Shown: positions 16,371-64,000 of the stretch, piece by piece
Numbering within the stretch: the stretch's first letter is position 1
Layout of the letters: each line of letters opens with the position of its first letter
Assembly (NCBI GenBank): GCA_963920635.1
Contig: OY987298.1
Span: 4,683,691-4,747,690, forward strand
DNA length: 64,000 nt
Reading direction: 5' to 3'
Source: Pseudeuparius sepicola
Lineage: Eukaryota; Arthropoda; Insecta; Coleoptera; Anthribidae
The notes under the pieces: generated by a model
What the model saw: only the letters and a program-made list of their open reading frames with translations
Database searches by the model: none
What the model was told of the DNA's origin: nothing
Program-made: the position numbers and the translations under genes

Positions 16371-16710
16371 TAGTAATATTTGGGGAGGTTTTTCATGAAC
16401 AAATTTGAAATAAATTAGGTGGGTCATTCACCAAATAACCTTATGGAGAAGCCGCGTCTGCTTAATAGAATTTTGACGTGAAAGCTACACACTTTTCTAA
16501 AAAAGTAGGAAAATGTACAGGATAATTCCTTTACTTTACTTGAATAACTTAATAATATTGCGACGCTTCTTTCAACATGGATCGTGAAACCATTTTAAAA
16601 AGCAATTGCCTAAAACCTTATGAGTCCTTGCATGCATTAAAAGTTGTATAAAACTGATGGAAAAGTTGTAAAAAAAGTTAAATTTAACCATTTCAAATAC
16701 CTTATTAATG
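16371..16710. other. Spacer between elements
   Basis: No gene seen. It contains TCTGCTTAATA at 16457, which also occurs near 15247, suggesting an old shared repeat fragment. Confidence 0.4.
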
Positions 16711-22459: not shown

Positions 22460-22461
22460 TA

Positions 22462-24447: not shown

Positions 24448-24449
24448 TA

Positions 24450-30436: not shown

Positions 30437-31300
30437 GGTCGTAAAAGGGTTGATGTACTCCGAGTTTATGACAAACTGTTTTAATTAGGTTATTTAAACG
30501 TTGAAATGGAAACCATAATGTGAATAAACTCGATAGTGCAAGAGTAGATGCGTTGAAAAACAGTTGTTTAAATAACTATTTCAAACAGGGTGTCTCAGCA
30601 ATATTAATATAACGTTGATAATAAAACCTAAATGTTACGAGTTTAAAAGTGCAGGAATAACAACGTCGTAAAAGGGTTGATGCATACCGAGTTGATTACA
30701 AACTCTTCTGTTAAGTTATTTAAACGCTAAAATGAAAACCATAATGTAAATAAATTTAAGAGTGCAACAGTAGAAACGTTGAAAAACAGTTGGTTAAATA
30801 ACTATCTTGACCGGGTGTTTTAGTAACATTATTATAACATTGATAATAATACCATAATGTTACGAGTTTAAAAGTACAGCAATAGCAACGTCGTAAAAGG
30901 ATTGATGTACTCAGAGTTGATTACAAACTCTGTTTTAATTAGGTTATTTATACGTTGAAATGGAAACCATAATGTGAATAAACTCGATGGTGCAAGAGTA
31001 GAAACGTTGAAAAACAGTTGGTTAAATAACTATTTCAAACAGGGTGTTTCAGAAACATTAGTATAACGTTGATAATAAAACCGAAATGTTACGAGTTTAA
31101 AAGTGCAGCAATAACAACGTCGTAAAAGGGTTGATGTATACCGAGTTGATTACAAACTGTTTTAATTAAGTTACTTAAACATTGATATGAAAACGGTAAT
31201 GTGAATAAATTTAACAGTGCAACAGTGAAAACGTTGAAAAACAATTGGTTAAATAACCATTTCATATAGGGAGTTTCAGTAACATTAGTAGGTATAACGT
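30437..31300. repeat. ~227-bp tandem repeat, block A, ~3.8 copies
   Basis: GTCGTAAAAGG starts units at about 30439, 30665, 30890 and 31119. Each unit holds TTATTTAAACGTTGAAATG, GTGCAACAGTAGAAACGTTG, AACAGGGTGTTTCAGTAACA and TATAACGTTGATAATAAAAC. It is the same family as 33762-36712. Confidence 0.85.
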
Positions 31301-33220: not shown

Positions 33221-33299
33221 TAGGTAGTATGTTTTGTAAGCTACGTGTATGCAGAATAATCTGTTACTCATGAAATAGTCTTGTCAAATACCATTCGGA

Positions 33300-33490
33300 A
33301 ATCTAATTTTTCCTGTGAAAAAATCGAAAAAAATCACAATGCTAAGTAATATTTTTTTAACAAAATGCCATCGTGCAGGTGCAAAAATCCTCGTCTTTGA
33401 CTCGGATTTTTGTTGCCACCAGCACTCATGCTTCTTGTTAAAATATTACTTAGCAACGTGTTTTTTCGATTTTTTTCGAAAAAATTAGAT
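33300..33490. repeat. 190-bp foldback hairpin
   Basis: ATCTAATTTTT...AATCGAAAAAAATCAC and GCTAAGTAATATTTT on the left pair with AAAATATTACTTAGC and TTTTTTCGATTTTTTTCG...AAAATTAGAT on the right. The stem is ~70 bp with a ~50-bp loop. It is either a foldback MITE or a precursor-like RNA hairpin. Confidence 0.65.
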
Positions 33491-33761
33491 GTCCTTATGA
33501 TATTACTTACGAATAAATAGAATAAATTATTTAATAACATTCAATGTAAACTGCACTTGGGCATGCGCGAACGGAATGCCAGCTCTTCATCAGCACCTTT
33601 ACAACAAGAACTTACATACTTATCATTGGTAAATACAAGTTTACGTAACAATAATAACACTTTGAGCCTACGCTAACGGTACTTATGCCTATGGTTTTCT
33701 GGGGATTTTCTATTTTAAACCAATCACATCCAAAAATCTGTAAATATCTCCTGATCTATAG

Positions 33762-36712: not shown

Positions 36713-36943
36713 TCCTAAGTTTAAAAATATATAAAGAGGAACGGGCTATCAACTTTCTATGTGGAAGAATTTGATATGACGTTATTTTAATACAGTTTTA
36801 GCAAGGTATTTTTGAGGTTGATTTTGCAACCGTTGTTAATGTAACGCAAATGTGAACGTTTCAAAAACAACGTGTAACGTTATTTCTACGGCCATAACGT
36901 TAAATCAACCTAAATTCAACTGATCTGTGTTTACTGGGATAAT

Positions 36944-37311: not shown

Positions 37312-40300
37312 CAATAGGGAAAACCGCCGTTTTCACTTGCATGACTTTTCTTTTAACGGAAATTAGTTTAAGGCCACCTATTCTAACTATCCACGAAGAA
37401 TCAGAATTTGCGAACCTCGTCTTCACCCCTTTCCACCCCCAAGACCGAAAAACGTAAAAAAATCGGGGAAACCGCCGTTTTCACTTGCATGACTTTTCTT
37501 TTCACGGAAATTAGTTTAAGGCCACCTATTCTAACTATCCACGAAGAATCAGAATTTGCGAACCTCGTCTTCACCCCTTTCCACCCTCAAGACCGAAAAA
37601 CGTAAAAAAATCGGGGAAACCGCCGTTTTCACTTGCATGACTTTTCTTTTCACGGAAATTAGTTTTAGGCCACCTATTCTAACTATCCACAAATAATCAG
37701 AATTTGCGAAACTCGTCTTCACCCCTTTCCACCCCCAAGACCGAAAAACGTAAAAAAATCGGGGAAACCGCCGTTTTCACTTGCATGACTTTTCTTTTCA
37801 CGGAAATTAGTTTAAGGCCACCTATTCTAACTATCCACGAAGAATCAGAATTTGCGAACCTCGTCTTCACCCCTTTCCACCCCCAAGACCGAAAAACGTA
37901 AAAAAATCGGGGAAACCGCCGTTTTCACTTGCATGACTTTTCTTTTCACGGAAATTAGTTTAAGGCCACCTATTCTAACTATCCACAAAGAATCAGAATT
38001 TGCGAACCTCGTCTTCACCCCTTTCCACCCCCAAGACCGAAAAACCTAACAAAATCGGGAAAACGGCCGTTTTCACTTGCATGACTTTTCTTTTCACGGA
38101 AATTAGTTTAAGGCCACCTATTCTAACTATCCACAAAGAATCAGAATTTGCGAACCTCGTCTTCACCCCTTTCCACCCCCAAGACCGAAAAACCTAAAAA
38201 AATCAGGAAAACGGCCGTTTTCACTTGCATGACTTTTATTTTCACGGAAATTAGTTTAAGGCCACCTATTCTAACTATCCACAAAGAATCAGAATTTGCG
38301 AACCTCGTCTTCACCCCTTTCCACCCCCAAGACCGAAAAATTTTAAAAAATCGGGAAAACCGCCGTTTTCACTTGCATGACTTTTCTTTTCACGGAAATT
38401 AGTTTAAGGGCACCTATTCTAACTATCCACGAAGAATCAGAATTTGCGAACCTCGTCTTCACCCCTTTCCGCCCCCAAGACCGAAAAACTTTAAAAAATC
38501 GGGAAAACCGCCGTTTTCACTTGCATGACTTTTCTTTTCAGGGAAATTAGTTTAAGGCCACCTATTCTAACTATCCACGAAGAATCAGAATTTGCGAACC
38601 TCGTCTTCACCCCTTTCCGCCCCCAAGACCGAAAAACTTTAAAAAATCGGGAAAACCGCCGTTTTCACTTGCATGACTTTTCTTTTCAGGGAAAATAGTT
38701 TAAGGCCACCTATTCTAACTATCCACGAAGAATCAGAATTTGCGAACCTCGTCTTCACCCCTTTCCACCCCCAAGACCGAAAAACGTAAAAAAATCGGGA
38801 AAACGGCCGTTTTCACTTGCATGACTTTTATTTTCACGGAAATTAGTTTAAGGCCACCTATTCTAACTATCCACAAATAATCAGAATTTGCGAACCTCGT
38901 CTTCACCCCTTTCCGCCCCCAAGACCGAAAAACTTTAAAAAATCGGGAAAACCGCCGTTTTCACTTGCATGACTTTTCTTTTCAGGGAAATTAGTTTAAG
39001 GCCACCTATTCTAACTATCCATGAAGAATCAGAATTTGCGAACCTCGTCTTCACCCCTTTCCACCCCCAAGACCGAAAAACGTAAAAAAATCGGGAAAAC
39101 GGCCGTTTTCACTTGCATGACTTTTATTTTCACGGAAATTAGTTTAAGGCCACCTATTCTAACTATCCACAAATAATCAGAATTTGCGAACCTCGTCTTC
39201 ACCCCTTTCCACCCCCAAGACCGAAAAACGTAAAAAAATCGGGGAAACCGCCGTTTTCACTTGCATGAATTTTCTTTTCACGGAAATTAGTTTAAGGCCA
39301 CCTATTCTAACTATCCACGAAGAATCAGAATTTGCGAACCTCGTCTTCACCCCTTTCCGCCCCCAAGACCGAAAAACTTTTAAAAATCGGGAAAACCGCC
39401 GTTTTCACTTGCATGACTTTTCTTTTCAGGGAAATTAGTTTAAGGCCACCTATTCTAACTATCCACAAATAATCAGAATTTGCGGACCTCGTCTTCACCC
39501 CTTTCCACCCCCAAGACCGAAAAACGTAAAAAAATCGGGGAAACCGCCGTTTTCACTTGCATGACTTTTCTTTTCACGGAAATTAGTTTAAGGCCACCTA
39601 TTCTAACTATCCACGAAGAATCAGAATTTGCGAACCTCGTCTTCACCCCTTTCCACCCCCAAGACCGAAAAACCTAAAAAAATCGGGAAAACGGCCGTTT
39701 TCACTTGCATGACTTTTATTTTCACGGAAATTAGTTTATGGCCACCTATTCTAACTATCCACAAAGAATCAGAATTTGCGAACCTCGTCTTCACCCCTTT
39801 CCGCCCCCAAGACCGAAAAACTTTAAAAAATCGGGAAAACCGCCGTTTTCACTTGCATGACTTTTCTTTTCACGGAAATTAGTTTAAGGCCACCTATTGT
39901 AACTATCCACGAAGAATCAGTATTTGCGAACCTCGTCTTCACCCCTTTCCACCCCCAAGACCGAAAAACGTAAAAAAAATCGGGAAAACGGCCGTTTTCA
40001 CTTGCATGACTTTTATTTTCACGGAAATTAGTTTAAGGCCACCTATTCTAACTATCCACAAATAATCAGAATTTGCGAACCTCGTCTTCACCCCTTTAAA
40101 CCCCCAAGACCGAAAAACGTAAAAAAATCGGGGAAACCGCCGTTTTCACTTGCATGACTTTTCTTTTCACGGAAATTAGTTTAAGGCCACCTATTCTAAC
40201 TATCCACGAAGAATCAGAATTTGCGAACCTCGTCTTCACCCCTTTCCACCCTCAAGACCGAAAAACTTTAAAAAATCGGGGAAACCTCCGTTTTCACTTG

Positions 40301-42749
40301 CATGACTTTTCTTTTCACGGAAATTAGTTTAAGGCCACCTATTCTAACTATCCACGAAGAATCAGTATTTGCGAACCTCGTCTTCACCCCTTTCCACCCC
40401 CAAGACCGAAAAACGTAAAAAAAATCGGGAAAACGGCCGTTTTCACTTGCATGACTTTTATTTTCACGGAAATTAGTTTAAGGCCACCTATTCTAACTAT
40501 CCACAAATAATCAGAATTTGCGAACCTCGTCTTCACCCCTTTCCACCCCCAAGACCGAAAAACGTAAAAAAATCGGGGAAACCGCCGTTTTCACTTGCAT
40601 GACTTTTCTTTTCACGGAAATTAGTTTAAGGCCACCTATTCTAACTATCCACAAAGAATCATAATTTGCGAACCTCGTCTTCACCCCTTTCCACCCCCAA
40701 GACCGAAAAACTTTAAAAAATCGGGAAAACCGCCGTTTTCACTTGCATGACTTTTCTTTTCAGGGAAATTAGTTTAAGGCCACCTATTCTAACTATCCAC
40801 GAAGAATCAGAATTTGCGAACCTCGTCTTCACCCCTTTCCACCCCCAAGACCGAAAAACGTAAAAAAATCGGGAAAACGGCCGTTTTCACTTGCATGACT
40901 TTTATTTTCACGGAAATTAGTTTAAGGCCACCTATTCTAACTATCCACAAATAATCAGAATTTGCGAACCTCGTCTTCAACCCTTTCCACCCCCAAGACC
41001 GAAAAACGTAAAAAAATCGGGGAAACCGCCGTTTTCACTTGCATGACTTTTCTTTTCACGGAAATTAGTTTAAGGCCACCTATTCTAACTATCCACGAAG
41101 AATCAGAATTTGCGAACCTCGTCTTCACCCCTTTCCACCCTCAAGACCGAAAAACGTAAAAAAATCGGGGAAACCGCCGTTTTCACTTGCATGACTTTTC
41201 TTTTCACGGAAATTACTTTAAGGCCACCTATTCTAACTATCCACAAAGAATCAGAATTTGCGAACCTCGTCTTCACCCCTTTCCACTCCCAAGACCGAAA
41301 AACTTTAAAAAATCGGGAAAACCGCCGTTTTCACTTGCATGACTTTTCTTTTCAGGGAAATTAGTTTAAGGCCACCTATTCTAACTATCCACGAAGAATC
41401 AGAATTTGGGAACCTCCTCTTCACCCCTTTCCACCCCCAAGACCGAAAAACGTAAAAAAATCGGGAAAACGGCCGTTTTCACTTGCATGACTTTTATTTT
41501 CACGGAAATTAGTTTAAGGCCACCTATTCTAACTATCCACAAAGAATCAGAATTTGCGAACCTCGTCTTCACCCCTTTCCACCCCCAAGACCGAAAAACC
41601 TAAAAAAATCGGGAAAACGGCCGTTTTCACTTGCATGACTTTTATTTTCACGGAAATTAGTTTAAGGCCACCTATTCTAACTATCCACAAAGAATCAGAA
41701 TTTGCGAACCTCGTCTTCACCCCTTTCCACCCCCAAGACCGAAAAACTTTAAAAAATCGGGAAAACCGCCGTTTTCACTTGCATGACTTTTCTTTTCAGG
41801 GAAATTAGTTTAAGGCCACCTATTCTAACTATCCACGAAGAATCAGAATTTGCGAACCTCGTCTTCACCCCTTTCCACCCCCAAGACCGAAAAACGTAAA
41901 AAAATCGGGAAAACGGACGTTTTCACTTGCATGACTTTTATTTTCACGGAAATTAGTTTAAGGCCACCTATTCTAACTATCCACAAATAATCAGAATTTG
42001 CGAACCTCGTCTTCACCCCTTTCCACCCCCAAGACCGAAAAACGTAAAAAAATCGGGGAAACCGCCGTTTTCACTTGCATGACTTTTCTTTTCACGGAAA
42101 TTAGTTTAAGGCCACCTATTCTAACTATCCACAAAGAATCAGAATTTGCGAACCTCGTCTTCACCCCTTTCCACCCCCAAGACCGATAAACTTAAAAAAA
42201 TCGGGAAAACCGCCGTTTTCACTTGCATGACTTTTCTTTTCACGGAAATTAGTTTAAGGCCACCTATTCTAACTATCCACAAAGAATCAGAATTTGCGAA
42301 CCTCGTCTTCACCCCTTTCCACCCCCAAGACCGAAAAATCGGGAAAACGGCCGTTTTCACTTGCATGACTTTTATTTTCACGGAAATTAGTTTAAGGCCA
42401 CCTATTCTAACTATCCACAAATAATCAGAATTTGCGAACCTCGTCTTCACCCCTTTCCGCCCCCAAGACCGAAAAACTTTAAAAAATCGGGAAAACCGCC
42501 GTTTTCACTTGCATGACTTTTATTTTCACGGAAATTAGTTTAAGGCCACCTATTCTAACTATCCACAAAGAATCAGAATTTGCGAACCTCGTCTTCACCC
42601 CTTTCCACCCCCAAGACCGAAAAACTTAAAAAAATCGGGAAAACCGCCGTTTTCACTTGCATGACTTTTCTTTTCACGGAAATTAGTTTAAGGCCACCTA
42701 TTCTAACTATCCACAAAGAATCAGAATTTGCGAACCTCGTCTTCACCCC
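37312..42749 (+). repeat. 148-bp satellite, left array, ~37 monomers
   Basis: Each 148-bp monomer contains, in order, CCGCCGTTTTCACTTGCATG, ACTTTTCTTTTCACGGAAAT, AGTTTAAGGCCACCTATTC, TAACTATCCACRAAGAATC, AGAATTTGCGAACCTCGTC and CTTTCCACCCCCAAGACCG. Monomers differ at few sites, mainly in the linker (CGTAAAAAAATC, CTTTAAAAAATC or CCTAAAAAAATC) and at CGCCG/GGCCG. A shortened monomer lies near 42338. Short frames recurring every 148 bp (65 or 84 codons) are by-products: 148 is not a multiple of 3, so no frame persists. Confidence 0.97.
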
Positions 42750-42758
42750 AAGACGAGG
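42735..42758. repeat. Head-to-head inversion junction of the satellite
   Basis: CCTCGTCTT (42735-42743), the spacer CACCCC, and AAGACGAGG (42750-42758) form the centre, and the arms continue outward for the whole array in mirror orientation. The switch is a clean point within one monomer, with no other DNA at the join. The monomers next to the centre differ at diagnostic sites (left linker CTTAAAAAAATCGGGAAAA, right CGTAAAAAAATCGGGGAAA). Confidence 0.95.
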
Positions 42759-45700
42759 TTGGCAAATTCTGATTCTTTGTGGATAGTTAGAATAGGTGGC
42801 CTTAAACTAATTTCCGTGAAAAGAAAAGTCATGCAAGTGAAAACGGCGGTTTCCCCGATTTTTTTACGTTTTTCGGTCTTGGGGGTGGAAAGGGGTGAAG
42901 ACGAGGTTCGCAAATTCTGATTATTTGTGGCTAGTTAGAATAGGTGGCCTTAAACTAATTTCCGTGAAAAGAAAAGTCATGCAAGTGAAAACGGCGGTTT
43001 CCCCGATTTTTTTACGTTTTTCGGTCTTGAGGGTGGAAAGGGGTGAAGACGAGGTTCGCAAATTCTGATTCTTCGTGGATAGTTAGAATAGGTGGCCTTA
43101 AACTAATTTCCGTGAAAAGAAAAGTCATGCAAGTGAAAACGGCGGTTTCCCCGATTTTTTTACATTTTTCGGTCTTGGGGGTGGAAAGGGGTGAAGACGA
43201 GGTTCGCAAATTCTGATTCTTCGTGGATAGTTAGAATAGGTGGCCTTAAACTAATTTCCGTGAAAAGAAAAGTCATGCAAGTGAAAACGGCGGTTTTCCC
43301 GATTTTTTTACGTTTTTCGGTCTTGAGGGTGGAAAGGGGTGAAGACGAGGTTCGCAAATTCTGATTCTTCGTGGATAGTTAGAATAGGTGGCCTTAAACT
43401 AATTTCCGTGAAAAGAAAAGTCATGCAAGTGAAAACGGCGGTTTCCCCGATTTTTTTACGTTTTTCGGTCTTGGGGGTGGAAAGGGGTGAAGACGAGGTT
43501 CGCAAATTCTGATTCTTTGTGGATAGTTAGAATAGGTGGCCTTAAACTAATTTCCGTGAAAAGAAAAGTCATGCAAGTGAAAACGGCGGTTTTCCCGATT
43601 TTTTTAAGTTTTTCGTTCTTGGGGGTGGAAAGGGGTGAAGACGAGGTTCGCAAATTCTGATTCTTCGTGGATAGTTAGAATAGGTGGCCTTAAACTAATT
43701 TCCGTGAAAAGAAAAGTCATGCAAGTGAAAACGGCGGTTTCCCCGATTTTTTTACGTTTTTCGGTCTTGGGGGTGGAAAGGGGTGAAGACGAGGTTCGCA
43801 AATTCTGATTATTTGTGGATAGTTAGAATAGGTGGCCTTAAACTAATTTCCGTGAAAAGAAAAGTCATGCAAGTGAAAACGGCGGTTTCCCCGATTTTTT
43901 TACGTTTTTCGGTCTTGAGGGTGGAAAGGGGTGAAGACGAGGTTCGCAAATTCTGATTCTTCGTGGATAGTTAGAATAGGTGGCCATAAACTAATTTCCG
44001 TGAAAAGAAAAGTCATGCAAGTGAAAACGGCGGTTTCCCCGATTTTTTTACATTTTTCGGTCTTGGGGGTGGAAAGGGGTGAAGACGAGGTTCGCAAATT
44101 CTGATTCTTCGTGGATAGTTAGAATAGGTGGCCTTAAACTAATTTCCGTGAAAAGAAAAGTCATGCAAGTGAAAACGGCGGTTTTCCCGATTTTTTTAAG
44201 TTTTTCGGTCTTGGGGGTGGAAAGGGGTGAAGACGAGGTTCGCAAATTCTGATTCTTTGTGGATAGTTAGAATAGGTGGCCTTAAACTAATTTCCGTGAA
44301 AAGAAAAGTCATGCAAGTGAAAACGGCGGTTTTCCCGATTTTTTAAAGTTTTTCGGTCTTGGGGGTGGAAAGGGGTGAAGACGAGGTTCGCAAATTCTGA
44401 TTCTTTGTGGATAGTTAGAATAGGTGGCCTTAAACTAATTTCCGTGAAAATAAAAGTCATGCAAGTGAAAACGGCCGTTTTCCCGATTTTTTTAGGTTTT
44501 TCGGTCTTGGGGGTGGAAAGGGGTGAAGACGAGGTTCGCAAATTCTGATTCTTTGTGGATAGTTAGAATAGGTGGCCTTAAACTAATTTCCGTGAAAAGA
44601 AAAGTCATGCAAGTGAAAACGGCGGTTTTCCCGATTTTTTTAAGTTTTTCGGTCTTGGGGGTGGAAAGGGGTGAAGACGAGGTTCGCAAATTCTGATTCT
44701 TTGTGGATAGTTAGAATAGGTGGCCTTAAACTAATTTCCGTGAAAAGAAAAGTCATGCAAGTGAAAACGGCGGTTTCCCCGATTTTTTTACGTTTTTCGG
44801 TCTTGGGGGTGGAAAGGGGTGAAGACGAGGTTCGCAAATTCTGATTCTTCGTGGATAGTTAGAATAGGTGGCCTTAAACTAATTTCCGTGAAAAGAAAAG
44901 TCATGCAAGTGAAAACGGCGGTTTCCCCGATTTTTTTACGTTTTTCGGTCTTGGGGGTGGAAAGGGGTGAAGACGAGGTTCGCAAATTCTGATTATTTGT
45001 GGATAGTTAGAATTAAACTAATTTCCGTGAAAAGAAAAGTCATGCAAGTGAAAACGGCGGTTTCCCCGATTTTTTTACGTTTTTCGGTCTTGAGGGTGGA
45101 AAGGGGTGAAGACGAGGTTCGCAAATTCTGATTCTTCGTGGATAGTTAGAATAGGTGGCCTTAAACTAATTTCCGTGAAAAGAAAAGTCATGCAAGTGAA
45201 AACGGCGGTTTCCCCGATTTTTTTACGTTTTTCGGTCTTGGGGGTGGAAAGGGGTGAAGACGAGGTTCGCAAATTCTGATTATTTGTGGATAGTTAGAAT
45301 AGGTGGCCTTAAACTAATTTCCGTGAAAATAAAAGTCATGCAAGTGAAAACGGCCGTTTTCCCGATTTTTTTACGTTTTTCGGTCTTGGGGGTGGAAAGT
45401 TGTGAAGACGAGGTTCGCAAATCCTGATTCTTCGTGGATAGTTAGAATAGGTGGCCTTAAACTAATTTCCCTGAAAAGAAAAGTCATGCAAGTGAAAACG
45501 GCGGTTTTCCCGATTTTTTAAAGTTTTTCGGTCTTGGGGGTGGAAAGGGGTGAAGACGAGGTTCGCAAATTCTGATTCTTTGTGGATAGTTAGAATAGGT
45601 GGCCTTAAACTAATTTCCGTGAAAATAAAAGTCATGCAAGTGAAAACGGCCGTTTTCCCGATTTTTTTAGGTTTTTCGGTCTTGGGGGTGGAAAGGGGTG

Positions 45701-48700
45701 AAGACGAGGTTCGCAAATTCTGATTCTTTGTGGATAGTTAGAATAGGTGGCCTTAAACTAATTTCCGTGAAAATAAAAGTCATGCAAGTGAAAACGGCCG
45801 TTTTCCCGATTTTTTTAGGTTTTTCGGTCTTGGGGGTGGAAAGGGGTGAAGACGAGGTTCGCAAATTCTGATTCTTTGTGGATAGTTAGAATAGGTGGCC
45901 TTAAACTATTTCCGTGAAAAGAAAAGTCATGCAAGTGAAAACGGCGGTTTTCCCGATTTTTTAAAGTTTTTCGGTCTTGGGGGTGGAAAGGGGTGAAGAC
46001 GAGATTCGCAAATTCTGATTCTTTGTGGATAGTTAGAATAGGTGGCCTTAAACTAATTTCCGTGAAAAGAAAAGTCATGCAAGTGAAAACGGCGGTTTCC
46101 CCGATTTTTTTACGTTTTTCGGTCTTGGGGGTGGAAAGGGGTGAAGACGAGGTTCGCAAATTCTGATTATTTGTGGATAGTTAGAATAGTTGGCCTTAAA
46201 CTAATTGCCGTGAAAAGAAAAGTCATGCAAGTGAAAACGGCGGTTTTCCCGATTTTTTAAAGTTTTTCGGTCTTGGGGTGGAAAGGGGTGAAGACGAGGT
46301 TCGCAAATTCTGATTCTTGGTGGATAGTTAGAATAGGTGGCCTTAAACTAATTTCCGTGAAAAGAAAAGTCACGCAAGTGAAAACGGCGGTTTCCCCGAT
46401 TTTTTTACGTTTTTCGGTCTTGGGGGTGGAAAGGGGTGAAGACGAGGTTCGCAAATTCTGATTATTTGTGGATAGTTAGAATAGGTGGCCTTAAACTAAT
46501 TTCCGTGAAAAGAAAAGTCATGCAAGTGAAAACGGCGGTTTTCCCGATTTTTTAAAGTTTTTCGGTCTTGGGGGTGGAAAGGGGTGAAGACGAGGTTCGC
46601 AAATTCTGATTCTTTGTGGATAGTTAGAATAGGTGGCCTTAAACTAATTTCCGTGAAAAGAAAAGTTATGCAAGTGAAAACGGCGGTTTCCCCGATTTTT
46701 TTACGTTTTTCGGTCTTGAGGGTGGAAAGGGGTGAAGACGAGGTTCGCAAATTCTGATTCTTCGTGGATAGTTAGAATAGGTGGCCTTAAACTAATTTCC
46801 GTGAAAAGAAAAGTCATGCAAGTGAAAACGGCGGTTTCCCCGACTTTTTTACATTTTTCGGTCTTGGGGGTGGAAAGGGGTGAAGACGAGGTTCGCAAAT
46901 TCTGATTATTTGTGGATAGTTAGAATAGGTGGCCTTAAACTAATTTCCGTGAAAATAAAAGTCATGCAAGTGAAAACGGCCGTTTTCCCGATTTTTTTAC
47001 GTTTTTCGGTCTTGGGGGTGGAAAGGGGTGAAGACGAGGTTCGCAAATTCTGATTCTTCGTGGATAGTTAGAATAGGTGGCCTTAAACTAATTTCCCTGA
47101 AAAGAAAAGTCATGCAAGTGAAAACGGCGGTTTTCCCGATTTTTTAAAGTTTTTCGGTCTTGGGGGTGGAAAGGGGTGAAGACGAGGTTCGCAAATTCTG
47201 ATTCTTTGTGGATAGTTAGAATAGGTGGCCTTAAACTAATTTCCGTGAAAATAAAAGTCATGCAAGTGAAAACGGCCGTTTTTCCGATTTTTTTAGGTTT
47301 TTCGGTCTTGGGGGTGGAAAGGGGTGAAGACGAGGTTCGCAAATTCTGATTCTTTGTGGATAGTTAGAATAGGTGGCCTTAAACTAATTTCCGTGAAAAG
47401 AATAGTCATGCAAGTGAAAACGGCGGTTTTCCCGATTTTTTTAAGTTTTTCGGTCTTGGGGGTGGAAAGGGGTGAAGACGAGGTTCGCAAATTCTGATTC
47501 TTTGTGGATAGTTTGAATAGGTGGCCTTAAACTAATTTCCGTGAAAATAAAAGTCATGCAAGTGAAAACGGCCGTTTTCCCGATTTTTTTAGGTTTTTCG
47601 GTCTTGGGGGTGGAAAGGGGTGAAGACGAGGTTCGCAAATTCTGATTCTTTGTGGATAGTTAGAATAGGTGGCCTTAAACTAATTTCCGTGAAAATAAAA
47701 GTCATGCAAGTGAAAACGGCCGTTTTCCCGATTTTTTTAAGTTTTTCGGTCTTGGGGGTGGAAAGGGGTGAAGACGAGGTTCGCAAATTCTGATTCTTTG
47801 TGGATAGTTAGAATAGGTGGCCTTAAACTAATTTCCGTGAAAAGAAAAGTCATGCAAGTGAAAACGGCGGTTTCCCCGATTTTTTTACGTTTTTCGGTCT
47901 TGGGGGTGGAAAGGGGTGAAGACGAGGCTCGCAAATTCTGATTATTTGTGGATAGTTAGAATAGGTGGCCTTAAACTAATTTCCGTGAAAATAAAAGTCA
48001 TGCAAGTGAAAACGGCCGTTTTCCCGATTTTTTTAGGTTTTTCGGTCTTGGGGGTGGAAAGGGGTGAAGACGAGGTTCGCAAATTCTGATTCTTTGTGGA
48101 TAGTTAGAATAGGTGGCCTTAAACTAATTTCCGTGAAAATAAAAGTCATGCAAGTGAAAACGGCCGTTTTCCCGATTTTTTTAGGTTTTTCGGTCTTGGG
48201 GGTGGAAAGGGGTGAAGACGAGGTTCGCAAATTCTGATTCTTCGTGGATAGTTAGAATAGGTGGCCTTAAACTAATTTCCCTGAAAAGAAAAGTCATGCA
48301 AGTGAAAACGGCGGTTTTCCCGATTTTTTAAAGTTTTTCGGTCTTGGGGGTGGAAGGGGGTGAAGACGAGGTTCGCAAATTCTGATTCTTTGTGGATAGT
48401 TAGAATAGGTGGCCTTAAACTAATTTCCGTGAAAATAAAAGTCATGCAAGTGAAAACGGCCGTTTTCCCGATTTTTTTAGGTTTTTCGGTCTTGGGGGTG
48501 GAAAGGGGTGAAGACGAGGTTCGCAAATTCTGATTCTTTGTGGATAGTTAGAATAGGTGGCCTTAAACTAATTTCCGTGAAAAGAAAATTCATGCAAGTG
48601 AAAACGGCGGTTTTCCCGATTTTTTAAAGTTTTTCGGTCTTGGGGGTGGAAAGGGGTGAAGACGAGGTTCGCAAATTCTGATTCTTTGTGGATAGTTAGA

Positions 48701-51700: not shown

Positions 51701-54700
51701 GCAAGTGAAAACGGCGGTTTTCCCGATTTTTTAAAGTTTTTCGGTCTTGGGGGTGGAAAGGGGTGAAGACGAGGTTCGCAAATTCTGATTATTTGTGGAT
51801 AGTTAGAATAGGTGGCCTTAAACTAATTTCCGTGAAAATAAAAGTCATGCAAGTGAAAACGGCCGTTTTCCCGATTTTTTTACGTTTTTCGGTCTTGGGT
51901 GTGGAAAGGGGTGAAGACGAGGTTCGCAAATTCTGATTCTTCGTGGATAGTTAGAATAGGTGGCCTTAAACTAATTTCCGTGAAAAGAAAAGTCATGCAA
52001 GTGAAAACGGCGGTTTTCCCGATTTTTTAAAGTTTTTCGGTCTTGGGGGTGGAAAGGGGTGAAGACGAGGTTCGCAAATTCTGATTCTTTGTGGATAGTT
52101 AGAATAGGTGGCCTTAAACTAATTTCCGTGAAAATAAAAGTCATGCAAGTGAAAACGGCCGTTTTCCCGATTTTTTTAAGTTTTTCGGTCTTGGGGGTGG
52201 AAAGGGGTGAAGACGAGGTTCGCAAATTCTGATTCTTTGTGGATAGTTAGAATAGGTGGCCTTAAACTAATTTCCGTGAAAAGAAAAGTCATGCAAGTGA
52301 AAACGGCGGTTTTCCCGATTTTTTAAAGTTTTTCGGTCTTGGGGGTGGAAAGGGGTGAAGACGAGGTTCGCAAATTCTGATTCTTTGTGGATAGTTAGAA
52401 TAGGTGGCCTTAAACTAATTTCCGTGAAAAGAAAAGTCATGCAAGTGAAAACGGCGGTTTCCCCGATTTTTTTACGTTTTTCGGTCTTGGGGGTGGAAAG
52501 GGGTGAAGACGAGGTTCGCAAATTCTGATTCTTCGTGGATAGTTAGAATAGGTGGCCTTAAACTAATTTCCGTGAAAAGAAAAGTCATGCAAGTGAAAAC
52601 GGCGGTTTCCCCGATTTTTTTACATTTTTCGGTCTTGGGGGTGGAAAGGGGTGAAAACGAGGTTCGCAAATTCTGATTATTTGTGGATAGTTAGAATAGG
52701 TGGCCTTAAACTAATTTTCGTGAAAATAAAAGTCATGCAAGTGAAAACGGCCGTTTTCCCGATTTTTTTACGTTTTTCGGTCTTGGGGGTGGAAAGGGGT
52801 GAAGACGAGGTTCGCAAATTCTGATTCTTCGTGGATAGTTAGAATAGGTGGCCTTAAACTAATTTCCGTGAAAAGAAAAGTCATGCAAGTGAAAACGGCG
52901 GTTTTCCCGATTTTTTAAAGTTTTTCGGTCTTGGGGGTGAAAAGGGGTGAAGACGAGGTTCGCAAATTCTGATTATTTGTGGATAGTTAGAATAGGTGGC
53001 CTTAAACTAATTTCCGTGAAAATAAAAGTCATGCAAGTGAAAACGGCCGTTTTCCCGATTTTTTTACGTTTTTCGGTCTTGGGGGTGGAAAGGGGTGAAG
53101 ACGAGGTTCGCAAATTCTGATTCTTCGTGGATAGTTAGAATAGGTGGCCTTAAACTAATTTCCCTGAAAAGAAAAGTCATGCAAGTGAAAACGGCGGTTT
53201 TCCCGATTTTTTAAAGTTTTTCGGTCTTGGGGGTGAAAAGGGGTGAAGACGAGGTTCGCAAATTCTGATTCTTTGTGGATAGTTAGAATAGGTGGCCTTA
53301 AACTAATTTCCGTGAAAAGGAAAGTCATGCAAGTGAAAACGGCGGTTTCCCCGATTTTTTTACGTTTTTCGGTCTTGGGGGTGGAAAGGGGTGAAGACGA
53401 GGTTCGCAAATTCTGATTATTTGTGGATAGTTAGAATAGGTGGCCTTAAACTAATTTCCCTGAAAAGAAAAGTCATGCAAGTGAAAACGGCGGTTTTCCC
53501 GATTTTTTAAAGTTTTTCGGTCTTGGGGGTGGAAAGGGGTGAAGACGAGGTTCGCAAATTCTGATTCTTTGTGGATAGTTAGAATAGGTGACCTTAAACT
53601 AATTTCCGTGAAAATAAAAGTCATGCAAGTGAAAACGGCCGTTTTCCCGATTTTTTTAGGTTTTTCGGTCTTGGGGGTGGAAAGGGGTGAAGACGAGGTT
53701 CGCAAATTCTGATTCTTTGTGGATAGTTAGAATAGGTGGCCTTAAACTAATTTCCGTGAAAAGAATAGTCATGCAAGTGAAAACGGCGGTTTTCCCGATT
53801 TTTTAAGTTTTTCGGTCTTGGGGGTGGAAAGGGGTGAAGACGAGGTTCGCAAATTCTGATTCTTTGTGGATAGTTAGGATAGGTGGCCTTAAACTAATTT
53901 CCGTGAAAAGAAAAGTCATGCAAGTGAAAACGGCGGTTTTCCCGATTTTTTAAAGTTTTTCGGTCTTGGGGGTGGAAAGGGGTGAAGACGAGGTTCGCAA
54001 ATTCTGATTCTTTGTGGATAGTTAGAATAGGTGGCCTTAAACTAATTTCCGTGAAAATAAAAGTCATGCAAGTGAAAACGGCCGTTTTCCCGATTTTTTT
54101 AAGTTTTTCGGTCTTGGGGGTGGAAAGGGGTGAAGACGAGGTTCGCAAATTCTGATTCTTTGTGGATAGTTAGAATAGGTGGCCTTAAACTAATTTCCGT
54201 GAAAAGAAAAGTCATGCAAGTGAAAACGGCGGTTTTCCCGATTTTTTAAAGTTTTTCGGTCTTGGGGGTGGAAAGGGGTGAAGACGAGGTTCGCAAATTC
54301 TGATTATTTGTGGATAGTTAGAATAGGTGGCCTTAAACTAATTTCCGTGAAAATAAAAGTCATGCAAGTGAAAACGGCCGTTTTCCCGATTTTTTTACGT
54401 TTTTCGGTCTTGGGTGTGGAAAGGGGTGAAGACGAGGTTCGCAAATTCTGATTCTTCGTGGATAGTTAGAATAGGTGGCCTTAAACTAATTTCCCTGAAA
54501 AGAAAAGTCATGCAAGTGAAAACGGCGGTTTTCCCGATTTTTTAAAGTTTTTCGGTCTTGGGGGTGGAAAGGGGTGAAGACGAGGTTCGCAAATTCTGAT
54601 TCTTTGTGGATAGTTAGAATAGGTGGCCTTAAACTAATTTCCGTGAAAATAAAAGTCATGCAAGTGAAAACGGCCGTTTTCCCGATTTTTTTAGGTTTTT

Positions 54701-57700
54701 CGGTCTTGGGGGTGGAAAGGGGTGAAGACGAGGTTCGCAAATTCTGATTCTTTGTGGATAGTTAGAATAGGTGGCCTTAAACTAATTTCCGTGAAAAGAA
54801 AAGTCATGCAAGTGAAAACGGCGGTTTTCCCGATTTTTTAAAGTTTTTCGGTCTTGGGGGTGGAAAGGGGTGAAGACGAGGTTCGCAAATTCTGATTCTT
54901 TGTGGATAGTTAGAATAGGTGGCCTTAAACTAATTTCCGTGAAAAGAAAAGTCATGCAAGTGAAAACGGCGGTTTTCCCGATTTTTTAAAGTTTTTCGGT
55001 CTTGGGGGTGGAAAGGGGTGAAGACGAGGTTCGCAAATTCTGATTCTTTGTGGATAGTTAGAATAGGTGGCCTTAAACTAATTTCCGTGAAAATAAAAGT
55101 CATGCAAGTGAAAACGGCCGTTTTCCCGATTTTTTTAGGTTTTTCGGTCTTGGGGGTGGAAAGGGGTGAAGACGAGGTTCGCAAATTCTGATTCTTTGTG
55201 GATAGTTAGAATAGGTGGCCTTAAACTAATTTCCGTGAAAAGAAAAGTCATGCAAGTGAAAACGGCGGTTTTCCCGATTTTTTAAAGTTTTTCGGTCTTG
55301 GGGGTGGAAAGGAGTGAAGACGAGGTTCGCAAATTCTGATTCTTTGTGGATAGTTAGAATAGGTGGCCTTAAACTAATTTCCGTGAAAAGAAAAGTCATG
55401 CAAGTGAAAACGGCGGTTTCCCCGATTTTTTTACGTTTTTCGGTCTTGGGGGTGGAAAGGGGTGAAGACGAGGTTCGCAAATTCTGATTATTTGTGGATA
55501 GTTAGAATAGGTGGCCTTAAACTAATTTCCGTGAAAAGAAAAGTCATGCAAGTGAAAACGGCGGGTTTCCCGATTTTTTAAAGTTTTCCGGTCTTGGGGG
55601 TGGAAAGGGGTGAAGACGAGGTTCGCAAATTCTGATTCTTTGTGGATAGTTAGAATAGGTGGCCTTAAACTAATTTCCGTGAAAAGAAAAGTCATGCAAG
55701 TGAAAACGGCGGTTTCCCCGATTTTTTTACGTTTTTCGGTCTTGAGGGTGGAAAGGGGTGAAGACGAGGTTCGCAAATTCTGATTCTTCGTGGATAGTTA
55801 GAATAGGTGGCCTTAAACTAATTTCCGTGAAAAGAAAAGTCATGCAAGTGAAAACGGCGGTTTCCCCGATTTTTTTACGTTTTTCGGTCTTGGGGGTGGA
55901 AAGGGGTGAAGACGAGGTTCGCAAATTCTGATTCTTTGTGGATAGTTAGAATAGGTGGCCTTAAACTAATTTCCGTGAAAAGAAAAGTCATGCAAGTGAA
56001 AACGGCGGTTTTCCCGATTTTTTTAAGTTTTTCGTTCTTGGGGGTGGAAAGGGGTGAAGACGAGGTTCGCAAATTCTGATTCTTCGTGGATAGTTAGAAT
56101 AGGTGGCCTTAAACTAATTTCCGTGAAAAGAAAAGTCATGCAAGTGAAAACGGCGGTTTCCCCGATTTTTTTACGTTTTTCGGTCTTGGGGGTGGAAAGG
56201 GGTGAAGACGAGGTTCGCAAATTCTGATTCTTCGTGGATAGTTAGAATAGGTGGCCTTAAACTAATTTCCGTGAAAAGAAAAGTCATGCAAGTGAAAACG
56301 GCGGTTTCCCCGATTTTTTTACATTTTTCGGTCTTGGGGGTGGAAAGGGGTGAAAACGAGGTTCGCAAATTCTGATTATTTGTGGATAGTTAGAATAGGT
56401 GGCCTTAAACTAATTTTCGTGAAAATAAAAGTCATGCAAGTGAAAACGGCCGTTTTCCCGATTTTTTTACGTTTTTCGGTCTTGGGGGTGGAAAGGGGTG
56501 AAGACGAGGTTCGCAAATTCTGATTCTTCGTGGATAGTTAGAATAGGTGGCCTTAAACTAATTTCCCTGAAAAGAAAAGTCATGCAAGTGAAAACGGCGG
56601 TTTTCCCGATTTTTTAAAGTTTTTCGGTCTTGGGGGTGGAAAGGGGTGAAGACGAGGTTCGCAAATTCTGATTCTTTGTGGATAGTTAGAATAGGTGGCC
56701 TTAAACTAATTTCCGTGAAAAGAAAAGTCATGCAAGTGAAAACGGCGGTTTCCCCGATTTTTTTACGTTTTTCGGTCTTGGGGGTGGAAAGGGGTGAAGA
56801 CGAGGTTCGCAAATTCTGATTATTTGTGGATAGTTAGAATAGGTGGCCTTAAACTAATTTCCGTGAAAATAAAAGTCATGCAAGTGAAAACGGCCGTTTT
56901 CCCGATTTTTTTACGTTTTTCGGTCTTGGGGGTGGAAAGGGGTGAAGACGAGGTTCGCAAATTCTGATTCTTCGTGGATAGTTAGAATAGGTGGCCTTAA
57001 ACTAATTTCCCTGAAAAGAAAAGTCATGCAAGTGAAAACGGCGGTTTTCCCGATTTTTTAAAGTTTTTCGGTCTTGGGGGTGAAAAGGGGTGAAGACGAG
57101 GTTCGCAAATTCTGATTCTTTGTGGATAGTTAGAATAGGTGGCCTTAAACTAATTTCCGTGAAAAGGAAAGTCATGCAAGTGAAAACGGCGGTTTCCCCG
57201 ATTTTTTTACGTTTTTCGGTCTTGGGGGTGGAAAGGGGTGAAGACGAGGTTCGCAAATTCTGATTATTTGTGGATAGTTAGAATAGGTGGCCTTAAACTA
57301 ATTTCCCTGAAAAGAAAAGTCATGCAAGTGAAAACGGCGGTTTTCCCGATTTTTTAAAGTTTTTCGGTCTTGGGGGTGGAAAGGGGTGAAGACGAGGTTC
57401 GCAAATTCTGATTCTTTGTGGATAGTTAGAATAGGTGACCTTAAACTAATTTCCGTGAAAATAAAAGTCATGCAAGTGAAAACGGCCGTTTTCCCGATTT
57501 TTTTAGGTTTTTCGGTCTTGGGGGTGGAAAGGGGTGAAGACGAGGTTCGCAAATTCTGATTCTTTGTGGATAGTTAGAATAGGTGGCCTTAAACTAATTT
57601 CCGTGAAAAGAATAGTCATGCAAGTGAAAACGGCGGTTTTCCCGATTTTTTAAGTTTTTCGGTCTTGGGGGTGGAAAGGGGTGAAGACGAGGTTCGCAAA

Positions 57701-60700
57701 TTCTGATTCTTTGTGGATAGTTAGGATAGGTGGCCTTAAACTAATTTCCGTGAAAAGAAAAGTCATGCAAGTGAAAACGGCGGTTTTCCCGATTTTTTAA
57801 AGTTTTTCGGTCTTGGGGGTGGAAAGGGGTGAAGACGAGGTTCGCAAATTCTGATTCTTTGTGGATAGTTAGAATAGGTGGCCTTAAACTAATTTCCGTG
57901 AAAATAAAAGTCATGCAAGTGAAAACGGCCGTTTTCCCGATTTTTTTAAGTTTTTCGGTCTTGGGGGTGGAAAGGGGTGAAGACGAGGTTCGCAAATTCT
58001 GATTCTTTGTGGATAGTTAGAATAGGTGGCCTTAAACTAATTTCCGTGAAAAGAAAAGTCATGCAAGTGAAAACGGCGGTTTTCCCGATTTTTTAAAGTT
58101 TTTCGGTCTTGGGGGTGGAAAGGGGTGAAGACGAGGTTCGCAAATTCTGATTCTTTGTGGATAGTTAGAATAGGTGGCCTTAAACTAATTTCCGTGAAAA
58201 GAAAAGTCATGCAAGTGAAAACGGCGGTTTCCCCGATTTTTTTACGTTTTTCGGTCTTGGGGGTGGAAAGGGGTGAAGACGAGGTTCGCAAATTCTGATT
58301 ATTTGTGGATAGTTAGAATAGGTGGCCTTAAACTAATTTCCGTGAAAATAAAAGTCATGCAAGTGAAAACGGCCGTTTTCCCGATTTTTTTACGTTTTTC
58401 GGTCTTGGGTGTGGAAAGGGGTGAAGACGAGGTTCGCAAATTCTGATTCTTCGTGGATAGTTAGAATAGGTGGCCTTAAACTAATTTCCCTGAAAAGAAA
58501 AGTCATGCAAGTGAAAACGGCGGTTTTCCCGATTTTTTAAAGTTTTTCGGTCTTGGGGGTGGAAAGGGGTGAAGACGAGGTTCGCAAATTCTGATTCTTT
58601 GTGGATAGTTAGAATAGGTGGCCTTAAACTAATTTCCGTGAAAATAAAAGTCATGCAAGTGAAAACGGCCGTTTTCCCGATTTTTTTAGGTTTTTCGGTC
58701 TTGGGGGTGGAAAGGGGTGAAGACGAGGTTCGCAAATTCTGATTCTTTGTGGATAGTTAGAATAGGTGGCCTTAAACTAATTTCCGTGAAAAGAAAAGTC
58801 ATGCAAGTGAAAACGGCGGTTTTCCCGATTTTTTAAAGTTTTTCGGTCTTGGGGGTGGAAAGGGGTGAAGACGAGGTTCGCAAATTCTGATTCTTTGTGG
58901 ATAGTTAGAATAGGTGGCCTTAAACTAATTTCCGTGAAAAGAAAAGTCATGCAAGTGAAAACGGCGGTTTTCCCGATTTTTTAAAGTTTTTCGGTCTTGG
59001 GGGTGGAAAGGGGTGAAGACGAGGTTCGCAAATTCTGATTCTTTGTGGATAGTTAGAATAGGTGGCCTTAAACTAATTTCCGTGAAAATAAAAGTCATGC
59101 AAGTGAAAACGGCCGTTTTCCCGATTTTTTTAGGTTTTTCGGTCTTGGGGGTGGAAAGGGGTGAAGACGAGGTTCGCAAATTCTGATTCTTTGTGGATAG
59201 TTAGAATAGGTGGCCTTAAACTAATTTCCGTGAAAAGAAAAGTCATGCAAGTGAAAACGGCGGTTTTCCCGATTTTTTAAAGTTTTTCGGTCTTGGGGGT
59301 GGAAAGGGGTGAAGACGAGGTTCGCAAATTCTGATTCTTTGTGGATAGTTAGAATAGGTGGCCTTAAACTAATTTCCGTGAAAAGAAAAGTCATGCAAGT
59401 GAAAACGGCGGTTTCCCCGATTTTTTTACGTTTTTCGGTCTTGGGGGTGGAAAGGGGTGAAGACGAGGTTCGCAAATTCTGATTATTTGTGGATAGTTAG
59501 AATAGGTGGCCTTAAACTAATTTCCGTGAAAAGAAAAGTCATGCAAGTGAAAACGGCGGTTTTCCCGATTTTTTAAAGTTTTCCGGTCTTGGGGGTGGAA
59601 AGGGGTGAAGACGAGGTTCGCAAATTCTGATTCTTTGTGGATAGTTAGAATAGGTGGCCTTAAACTAATTTCCGTGAAAAGAAAAGTCATGCAAGTGAAA
59701 ACGGCGGTTTCCCCGATTTTTTTACGTTTTTCGGTCTTGAGGGTGGAAAGGGGTGAAGACGAGGTTCGCAAATTCTGATTCTTCGTGGATAGTTAGAATA
59801 GGTGGCCTTAAACTAATTTCCGTGAAAAGAAAAGTCATGCAAGTGAAAACGGCGGTTTCCCCGATTTTTTACGTTTTTCGGTCTTGGGGGTGGAAAGGGG
59901 TGAAGACGAGGTTCGCAAATTCTGATTCTTTGTGGATAGTTAGAATAGGTGGCCTTAAACTAATTTCCGTGAAAAGAAAAGTCATGCAAGTGAAAACGGC
60001 GGTTTTCCCGATTTTTTTAAGTTTTTCGTTCTTGGGGGTGGAAAGGGGTGAAGACGAGGTTCGCAAATTCTGATTCTTCGTGGATAGTTAGAATAGGTGG
60101 CCTTAAACTAATTTCCGTGAAAAGAAAAGTCATGAAAGTGAAAACGGCGGTTTCCCCGATTTTTTTACGTTTTTCGGTCTTGGGGGTGGAAAGGGGTGAA
60201 GACGAGGTTCGCAAATTCTGATTATTTGTGGATAGTTAGAATAGGTGGCCTTAAACTAATTTCCGTGAAAAGAAAAGTCATGCAAGTGAAAACGGCGGTT
60301 TCCCCGATTTTTTTACGTTTTTCGGTCTTGAGGGTGGAAAGGGGTGAAGACGAGGTTCGCAAATTCTGATTCTTCGTGGATAGTTAGAATAGGTGGCCTT
60401 AAACTAATTTCCGTGAAAAGAAAAGTCATGCAAGTGAAAACGGAGGTTTCCCCGATTTTTTTACATTTTTCGGTCTTGGGGGTGGAAAGGGGTGAAGACG
60501 AGGTTCGCAAATTCTGATTATTTGTGGATAGTTAGAATAGGTGGCCTTAAACTAATTTTCGTGAAAATAAAAGTCATGCAAGTGAAAACGGCCGTTTTCC
60601 CGATTTTTTTACGTTTTTCGGTCTTGGGGGTGGAAAGGGGTGAAGACGAGGTTCGCAAATTCTGATTCTTCGTGGATAGTTAGAATAGGTGGCCTTACAC

Positions 60701-63700
60701 TAATTTCCGTGAAAAGAATAGTCATGCAAGTGAAAACTGCCGTTTTCCCGATTTTTTTAGGTTTTTCGGTCTTGGGGGTGGAAAGGGGTGAAGACGAGGT
60801 TCGAAAATTCTGATTCTTTGTGGATAGTTAGAATAGGTGGCCTAAAACTAATTTCCGTGAAAAGAAAAGTCATGCAAGTGAAAACGGCGGTTTCCCCGAT
60901 TTTTTTACGTTTTTCGGTCTTGGGGGTGGAAAGGGGTGAAGACGAGGTTCGCAAATTCTGATTATTTGTGGATAGTTAGAATAGGTGGCCTTAAACTAAT
61001 TTCCGTGAAAAGAAAAGTCATGCAAGTGAAAACGGCGGTTTTCCCGATTTTTTAAAGTTTTTCGGTCTTGGGGGTGGAAAGGGGTGAAGACGAGGTTCGC
61101 AAATTCTGATTCTTTGTGGATAGTTAGAATAGGTGGCCTTAAACTAATTTCCGTGAAAAGAAAAGTCATGCAAGTGAAAACGGCGGTTTCCCCGATTTTT
61201 TTACGTTTTTCGGTCTTGGGGGTGGAAAGGGGTGAAGACGAGGTTCGCAAATTCTGATTATTTGTGGATAGTTAGAATAGGTGGCCTTAAACTAATTTCC
61301 GTGAAAATAAAAGTCATGCAAGTGAAAACGGCCGTTTTCCCGATTTTTTTACGTTTTTCGGTCTTGGGGGTGGAAAGGGGTGAAGACGAGGTTCGCAAAT
61401 TCTGATTCTTCGTGGATAGTTAGAATAGGTGGCCTTAAACTAATTTCCCTGAAAAGAAAAGTCATGCAAGTGAAAACGGCGGTTTTCCCGATTTTTTAAA
61501 GTTTTTCGGTCTTGGGGGTGGAAAGGGGTGAAGACGAGGTTCGCAAATTCTGATTCTTTGTGGATAGTTAGAATAGGTGGCCTTAAACTAATTTCCGTGA
61601 AAATAAAAGTCATGCAAGTGAAAACGGCCGTTTTCCCGATTTTTTTAGGTTTTTCGGTCTTGGGGGTGGAAAGGGGTGAAGACGAGGTTCGCAAATTCTG
61701 ATTCTTTGTGGATAGTTAGAATAGGTGGCCTTAAACTAATTTCCGTGAAAATAAAAGTCATGCAAGTGAAAACGGCCGTTTTCCCGATTTTTTTAGGTTT
61801 TTCGGTCTTGGGGGTGGAAAGGGGTGAAGACGAGGTTCGCAAATTCTGATTCTTTGTGGATAGTTATAATAGGTGGCCTTAAACTAATTTCCGTGAAAAT
61901 AAAAGTCATGCAAGTGAAAACGGCCGTTTTCCCGATTTTTTTAGGTTTTTCGGTCTTGGGGGTGGAAAGGGGTGAAGACGAGGTTCGCAAATTCTGATTC
62001 TTTGTGGATAGTTACAATAGGTGGCCTTAAACTAATTTCCGTGAAAAGAAAAGTCATGCAAGTGAAAACGGCGGTTTTCCCGATTTTTTAAAGTTTTTCG
62101 GTCTTGGGGGTGGAAAGGGGTGAAGAAGAGGTTCGCAAATTCTGATTCTTTGTGGATAGTTAGAATAGGTGGCCTTAAACTAATTTCCGTGAAAATAAAA
62201 GTCATGCAAGTGAAAACGGCCGTTTTCCCGATTTTTTTAGGTTTTTCGGTCTTGGGGGTGGAAAGGGGTGAAGACGAGGTTCGCAAATTCTGATTCTTTG
62301 TGGATAGTTAGAATAGGTGGCCTTAAACTAATTTCCGTGAAAAGAAAAGTCATGCAAGTGAAAACGGCGGTTTTCCCGATTTTTTAAAGTTTTTCGGTCT
62401 TGGGGGTGGAAAGGGGTGAAGACGAGGTTCGCAAATTCTGATTCTTTGTGGATAGTTAGAATAGGTGGCCTTAAACTAATTTCCGTGAAAAGAAAAGTCA
62501 TGCAAGTGAAAACGGCGGTTTTCCCGATTTTTTAAAGTTTTTCGGTCTTGGGGGTGGAAAGGGGTGAAGACGAGGTTCGCAAATTCTGATTCTTTGTGGA
62601 TAGTTAGAATAGGTGGCCTTAAACTAATTTCCGTGAAAATAAAAGTCATGCAAGTGAAAACGGCCGTTTTCCCGATTTTTTTAGGTTTTTCGGTCTTGGG
62701 GGTGGAAAGGGGTGAAGACGAGGTTCGCAAATTCTGATTCTTTGTGGATAGTTAGAATAGGTGGCCTTAAACTAATTTCCGTGAAAAGAAAAGTCATGCA
62801 AGTGAAAACGGCGGTTTTCCCGATTTTTTAAAGTTTTTCGGTCTTGGGGGTGGAAAGGGGTGAAGACGAGGTTCGCAAATTCTGATTCTTTGTGGATAGT
62901 TAGAATAGGTGGCCTTAAACTAATTTCCGTGAAAAGAAAAGTCATGCAAGTGAAAACGGCGGTTTCCCCGATTTTTTTACGTTTTTCGGTCTTGGGGGTG
63001 GAAAGGGGTGAAGACGAGGTTCGCAAATTCTGATTATTTGTGGATAGTTAGAATAGGTGGCCTTAAACTAATTTCCGTGAAAAGAAAAGTCATGCAAGTG
63101 AAAACGGCGGTTTTCCCGATTTTTTAAAGTTTTCCGGTCTTGGGGGTGGAAAGGGGTGAAGACGAGGTTCGCAAATTCTGATTCTTTGTGGATAGTTAGA
63201 ATAGGTGGCCTTAAACTAATTTCCGTGAAAAGAAAAGTCATGCAAGTGAAAACGGCGGTTTCCCCGATTTTTTTACGTTTTTCGGTCTTGAGGGTGGAAA
63301 GGGGTGAAGACGAGGTTCGCAAATTCTGATTCTTCGTGGATAGTTAGAATAGGTGGCCTTAAACTAATTTCCGTGAAAAGAAAAGTCATGCAAGTGAAAA
63401 CGGCGGTTTCCCCGATTTTTTACGTTTTTCGGTCTTGGGGGTGGAAAGGGGTGAAGACGAGGTTCGCAAATTCTGATTCTTTGTGGATAGTTAGAATAGG
63501 TGGCCTTAAACTAATTTCCGTGAAAAGAAAAGTCATGCAAGTAAAAACGGCGGTTTTCCCGTTTTTTTTAAGTTTTTCGTTCTTGGGGGTGGAAAGGGGT
63601 GAAGACGAGGTTCGCAAATTCTGATTCTTCGTGGATAGTTAGAATAGGTGGCCTTAAACTAATTTCCGTGAAAAGAAAAGTCATGCAAGTGAAAACGGCG

Positions 63701-64000
63701 GTTTCCCCGATTTTTTTACGTTTTTCGGTCTTGAGGGTGGAAAGGGGTGAAGACGAGGTTCGCAAATTCTGATTCTTCGTGGATAGTTAGAATAGGTGGC
63801 CTTAAACTAATTTCCGTGAAAAGAAAAGTCATGCAAGTGAAAACGGCGGTTTCCCCGATTTTTTTACATTTTTCGGTCTTGGGGGTGGAAAGGGGTGAAG
63901 ACGAGGTTCGCAAATTCTGATTATTTGTGGATAGTTAGAATAGGTGGCCTTAAACTAATTTTCGTGAAAATAAAAGTCATGCAAGTGAAAACGGCCGTTT
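42750..64000 (-). repeat. 148-bp satellite, right array, ~144 monomers, runs off the window
   Basis: Same monomer as the left array in reverse orientation. Higher-order structure is visible from rare variants: GAAAACGAG at 49990, 52653 and 56352; AGGTGACCTT at 51071, 53586 and 57433; TCGTTCTTGG at about 56032, 60026 and 63577 (also ~43616). Occasional indels include a 9-bp deletion near 45013, a 1-bp deletion near 45908, and one 147-bp monomer per long unit (for example near 51286, 53803 and 57651). The array has not ended at 64000. Confidence 0.97.

Follow-up and report, generated by a model that had tools for sequence, protein, structure and literature searches.

Layout of the satellite array and the strand switch

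The locus raises the question of how a single satellite array comes to run in two opposite orientations, and whether one arm was turned round, copied back from the other or wrongly connected to it. The right 26.7 kb (37313-64000) of the window, i.e. the whole 64-kb stretch of DNA that was analyzed, were filled by one 148-bp satellite. Tandem Repeats Finder resolved this region into a left arm on the minus strand (37313-42749, approximately 5.4 kb, 36.8 copies of 148 bp with 95% matches) and a right arm on the plus strand (42750-64000, 143.7 copies of 148 bp with 96% matches). The right arm continues beyond the end of the window, so that its copy number and its size of 21.3 kb are lower bounds. 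The consensus units of both arms were complementary to each other. Thus, tandem copies of one unit abut in both orientations, which confirmed the proposal of a sequence-only reading that two opposed 148-bp arrays of more than 5.4 kb and more than 21 kb are present. A single orientation flip was seen in the array, near its left edge, and the GC skew changed sign at the junction from about -0.3 to +0.3. Chance is excluded as the source of the opposed arms, and at the level of the assembled sequence the 148-bp satellite does change its orientation within one array. The term head-to-head is used here as a convention, since no direction is known for the monomer.

The junction sequence is CGTCTT-CACCCC-AAGACG. 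The central CACCCC (42744-42749, minus strand) had been regarded as a 6-bp spacer. This has to be corrected, since the six bases are positions 143-148 of the left monomer and nothing is inserted. The arms therefore abut 6 bp out of phase with no foreign base between them; a phase match of the two breaks this close (6 bp or less of 148) has a probability of P = 0.088 for random phases. At the outer end of the left arm a truncated monomer (37313-37423, minus strand, unit positions 1-111) borders unlike flanking DNA.

Both monomers flanking the switch are near-canonical, with 1 and 2 differences of 148 from the consensus. Next to the axis, the left (L0) and right (R0) monomers carry different bases at type-marking sites (118A versus 104C) and are also separated by 12G, which was found in no other monomer of the table. 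Two different monomers therefore seem to have been joined.

A single-stranded stretch of 148 bases with the junction at its centre gave one long predicted DNA stem of -82 kcal/mol versus -12.0 kcal/mol for shuffled sequences, compared with -10.3 versus -13.1 kcal/mol for an ordinary monomer. The perfect stem at the axis comprises only 11 bp and is followed by one mismatch. The strong fold results from the inverted-repeat geometry; any inverted repeat would give it, and it is not evidence of extrusion in the cell. Cruciform extrusion, breakage, foldback replication and hairpin RNA, as suggested by the sequence-only reading, are thus no more than candidate effects.

Comparison of the two arms

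Both arms were cut into monomers by wraparound alignment, and 36 complete left monomers were compared with 143 complete right monomers. Incomplete monomers (2 left and 1 right, of 38 and 144 rows) were dropped, and inserted bases, present in 2 left monomers, were not counted as differences. The mean number of differences per 148 positions was 5.56 within the left arm, 4.50 within the right arm and 5.04 between the arms. A whole-arm MAFFT alignment (97.2% over 4919 columns with 1093 gap columns) was set aside because it shifts monomers.

In the true mirror register none of the 36 pairs was identical, and the mean was 5.44 differences per 148 (approximately 3.7% mismatch). Permuted pairing gave a mean of 5.16 (sd 0.28), and when the first 36 right monomers were permuted 5000 times, the true mirror register was equalled or beaten in 85% of cases. 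It ranked 106th of 129 registers (offsets -21 to +107), each of which had at least 15 pairs; offsets -30 to -22 had too few pairs to be counted. Even the best register, at offset -19 with 17 pairs, still had a mean of 3.82 differences per 148. No register of the 129 shows a foldback-copied arm within the window, and registers in reversed order gave no signal either (best mean 4.31). The lack of a near-zero register argues against a foldback copy, whether an artefact or natural and recent. The earlier statement that the flanking monomers are not mirror images was thus extended from the monomers at the axis to all 129 registers, and its use as an argument against a foldback artefact is borne out.

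Comparison of the variants indicated a common pool. For 16 of the 17 variants seen four or more times the frequency did not differ significantly between the arms (P of 0.06 or more), five of these 16 being found only in the right arm but too rare (4-5 copies) to tell. The remaining variant, 137C, was restricted to the left arm (6 of 36 left versus 0 of 143 right monomers, P = 4.6e-5, uncorrected). The longest run shared by both arms with at most one difference per monomer comprised five monomers and was in the palindromic sense (42161 and 61087), versus two monomers in the opposite sense. In a run-score test the best left-right run reached 5.5, compared with at most 5.0 in 200 single-monomer shuffles, a lenient null, and the other sense reached 3.0. 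Furthermore, left-arm stretches of 886 and 884 bp had reverse-oriented matches of at least 99% in the right core, whereas such matches inside the left arm reached only 351 bp. Judged by these runs, monomer order appears to be common to both arms when read in the sense of the monomer.

The left-arm monomers starting at 40533 and 40088 have the same extra T, and both are followed outward by a monomer with 19A. These pairs (40237-40533 and 39792-40088) may stem from a small duplication that is confined to the left arm.

Edge and core of the array

The right arm consists of two parts. Long recent duplications, taken as copies of at least 1 kb with at least 99% identity, covered a fraction of 0.92 of the amplified core (48215-64000, plus strand), versus 0.06 of the junction-side part (42750-48214, plus strand) and 0.00 of the left arm. 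The longest core copy was 2570 bp in size (99.5%). When at most one difference per monomer was allowed, 85 of the 106 complete monomers from 48215 onwards lay in duplicated runs of 9-14 monomers, compared with runs of at most five among the first 37 right monomers and at most two among left monomers within their own arm. The contrast in coverage was matched or beaten by 12 of 534 circular shifts; as the border at 48215 was read off the run profile, the contrast is no independent test. The switch sits in the unhomogenised edge of the array.

It could be speculated that unequal exchange is hindered by the strand switch, which would have spared approximately 5.4 kb on either side (the whole left arm and 42750-48214) from the amplification seen in most of the remaining right arm. 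In that case homogenised satellite cores would be bounded by such switches. However, a plain array edge lacking a switch would look alike, so we consider this idea very doubtful and treat it as a speculative case only.

Origin of the orientation switch

In our view, break repair or template switching that involved two different monomers probably reversed the edge of the array. The outer 5.4 kb or so would have been turned round, either by inversion of an edge segment or, alternatively, because a broken end was reconnected to a piece of this array in reverse orientation. A break or a stalled fork within the satellite is the likely starting point, and repair may have proceeded by end joining or by microhomology-mediated template switching at nearly equal phase. 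Later, the core from 48.2 kb onwards would have grown further by unequal exchange between copies of the same sense, whereas the edge, left and right of the switch, would not. Most likely the switch is a neutral by-product of satellite turnover and does nothing.

If the edge was inverted, the outermost left monomers should originally have been neighbours of the innermost right monomers. Consistent with this, the outermost left block was the best of all left blocks as a match to the innermost right block at sizes of 4, 5, 6 and 10 monomers (rank 1 of 33, 32, 31 and 27) and the second best at size 8 (2 of 29). The innermost left block ranked 21, 8, 8, 14 and 10 at sizes 4, 5, 6, 10 and 8, respectively. 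At size 12, contrary to the prediction, the outermost left block ranked only 9 of 25 and the innermost left block ranked 4. Viewed from the right arm, the innermost right block was never the best partner of the outermost left block, with ranks between 5 of 139 and 19 of 132 (11 of 140 among them); when paired with the innermost left block it ranked from 72 of 132 to 132 of 140. In controls within the right arm, true neighbours reached rank 3 or better in 11, 6, 6 and 8% of cases (sizes 4, 5, 6 and 8), compared with 1, 4, 6 and 6% for far blocks. Since neighbours and far blocks were little apart, the block comparison lends modest to weak backing to an inversion.

The junction itself hints in a somewhat different direction. 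The right arm starts with AAGAC, and the left monomer contains this motif again 11 bp further on (P = 0.032). Together with the phase match this has a probability of P = 0.003 among all phase pairs, a post hoc value for features chosen after the junction had been seen. The combination is a hint towards a hairpin or template switch over a plain inversion.

The same combination would fit an ODIRA-like duplication in which a short hairpin of the monomer gave rise to a foldback or template switch and the mirror order was later scrambled by conversion and unequal exchange. The monomer has a natural 5-bp inverted repeat, GTCTT-17-AAGAC, one of 11 inverted repeats in the monomer with a stem of 5 or more and a loop of 3-40, and the junction carries GTCTT-6-AAGAC. 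According to the available part of the published account, ODIRA relies on inverted repeats of approximately 5 nt, but these are spaced 40-80 nt apart (PMC10766186). Moreover, the loop at the junction is 6 instead of 17, so that an additional loss of 11 bp would be needed. Given that the mirror signal is absent at all 129 registers and that the monomers adjacent to the axis are of different types, we regard such a duplication as unlikely.

Near-identical repeats are easily misjoined during assembly, and two genuine arrays of one satellite in opposite orientation may have been wrongly connected. A point in favour is that the window has a single copy of the junction 16-mer. A misjoin through read overlap, however, should land on sequence common to both sides, and the arrays meet here with no overlap; the uniqueness of the 16-mer in the window means that a chimeric read would probably be needed. 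We therefore consider a misjoin quite improbable. Head-to-head copies with short loops are typical of artefacts from library amplification or a missed adapter, but such an artefact copies the same molecule and should leave some register near-identical, whereas the lowest mean of the 129 registers is 3.82 per 148 and none of the 36 true mirror pairs is identical, so that this explanation is extremely unlikely and, unless the copy came from beyond the end of the window, close to refuted.

Relatives of the satellite and other elements in the window

A decayed relative of the satellite with a unit of 147 bp is located at about 29633-30440 on the plus strand, where it is cut off by a 227-bp satellite. 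Aligned to the 148-bp unit, the 147-bp repeats scored z = 19.4 on the plus and -0.8 on the minus strand (200 shuffles each). From this alignment, the satellite family appears to be long established here. The 227-bp satellite is present in two blocks (33763-36713 and 30438-31290), one of which adjoins the decayed 147-bp array, and the longer matches between the blocks are 84-88% alike.

The CENP-B box has nine fixed bases. With the motif taken from general knowledge, the consensus contained at best six of the nine, and a CENP-B-box satellite was rejected. An exact 23-mer of the monomer gave 0 matches in each of genome_contigs and viral_contigs, from which records of the own genome were possibly left out. 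In the literature no 148-bp insect tandem-repeat satellite monomer was found, which is no evidence that it has never been published. Rfam returned 0 families over the window at gathering scores. The observed/expected ratio of CpG was 1.15 in the flank, 1.35 in the left array and 1.33 in the right array, so there is no sign of CpG loss across the window.

A remnant of a Tc1/mariner-like element was present at 22458-24451, with an ORF between inverted repeats (22458-22927 and 24029-24451, 82%). The ORF, at about 23001-23684, had 39 protein matches with a best identity of 72%, one of them named by its source as a Tc1-like transposase. PF13358, PF16087 or both were carried by 34 of the 39. Three of the 39 had a source name: two from Aromia moschata, a longhorn beetle, and one from a bacterial metagenome bin. 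As mobile elements are a poor guide to the taxon, an insect source of the DNA is a guess on these grounds. None of five ORFs of the window, the one at 23001 among them, matched Pfam at an E-value of 0.001, and none of 22 candidates for the ORF at 5798-6286 reached this E-value.

Additional repeats comprise a tandem array at 27226-27975 (unit 143 bp, 5.2 copies) and two dispersed inverted repeats, 1296-1869 / 2239-2827 (594 columns, 86.5%) and 15683-16373 / 26038-26759 (737 columns, 85.5%). Self-complementary stretches of about 220-440 bp with 64-77% identity (6426-6775, 12094-12530 and 33287-33504) are possibly foldback elements.

Comparison with known inverted satellite arrays

Inverted subarrays have been published for satellites of Tribolium and of primates, and judging from its arrangement the array belongs to the same general kind, a satellite with an orientation switch. 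In the accessible portion of the Tribolium report, arrays of TmSat1 and TmSat2 of T. madens contain inverted subarrays termed macro-dyad symmetries, which are reported in T. freemani and T. castaneum too (PMC13081366). The subarrays range from several kb to tens of kb, mostly with two per array, and a trend to similar subarray lengths is genome-wide. In T. madens there are thousands of switches with conserved, diverged units at the inversion sites (10.7-23.5% divergence for TmSat1), and the sites were verified on raw HiFi reads (PMC13081366).

As far as this portion allows a comparison, the monomers switch orientation here as in Tribolium, and subarrays of 5.4 kb and at least 21.3 kb fall within the published size range. 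In contrast to the thousands of switches there, one was seen here, and its monomers, 1 and 2 of 148 off the consensus, include no diverged unit. The arms of 5.4 versus at least 21.3 kb, the latter cut by the window end, are unequal; the tendency to symmetry in Tribolium is one of the genome as a whole. The unit of 148 bp differs from the 225 or 704 bp found there, as compared by length and not by sequence (PMC13081366). As the switch monomers are near-canonical and the junction was counted once, in the window, we place the array in the general kind rather than the Tribolium type.

Primate alpha-satellite arrays contain inversions as well. In the part of the report available, these are large, polymorphic and checked on reads, with one of 3.2 Mb in an orangutan centromere (PMC11062924). 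The orientation change inside a homogenised array is a shared feature; here, unlike in primates, the short side measures 5.4 kb and is known from the assembly alone (PMC11062924). With ODIRA, as far as described in the same partial account as above, the locus shares a palindromic junction near an inverted repeat of approximately 5 nt, but its arms are not mirrored, the loop size is different and one junction was seen (PMC10766186).

By itself, the switch demonstrates neither a hairpin nor a fragile site nor any function. If reads confirm it, the locus would be a small, variant-rich case for distinguishing an inversion from a foldback duplication by the order of monomer types, and for testing whether a strand switch is linked to homogenisation nearby.
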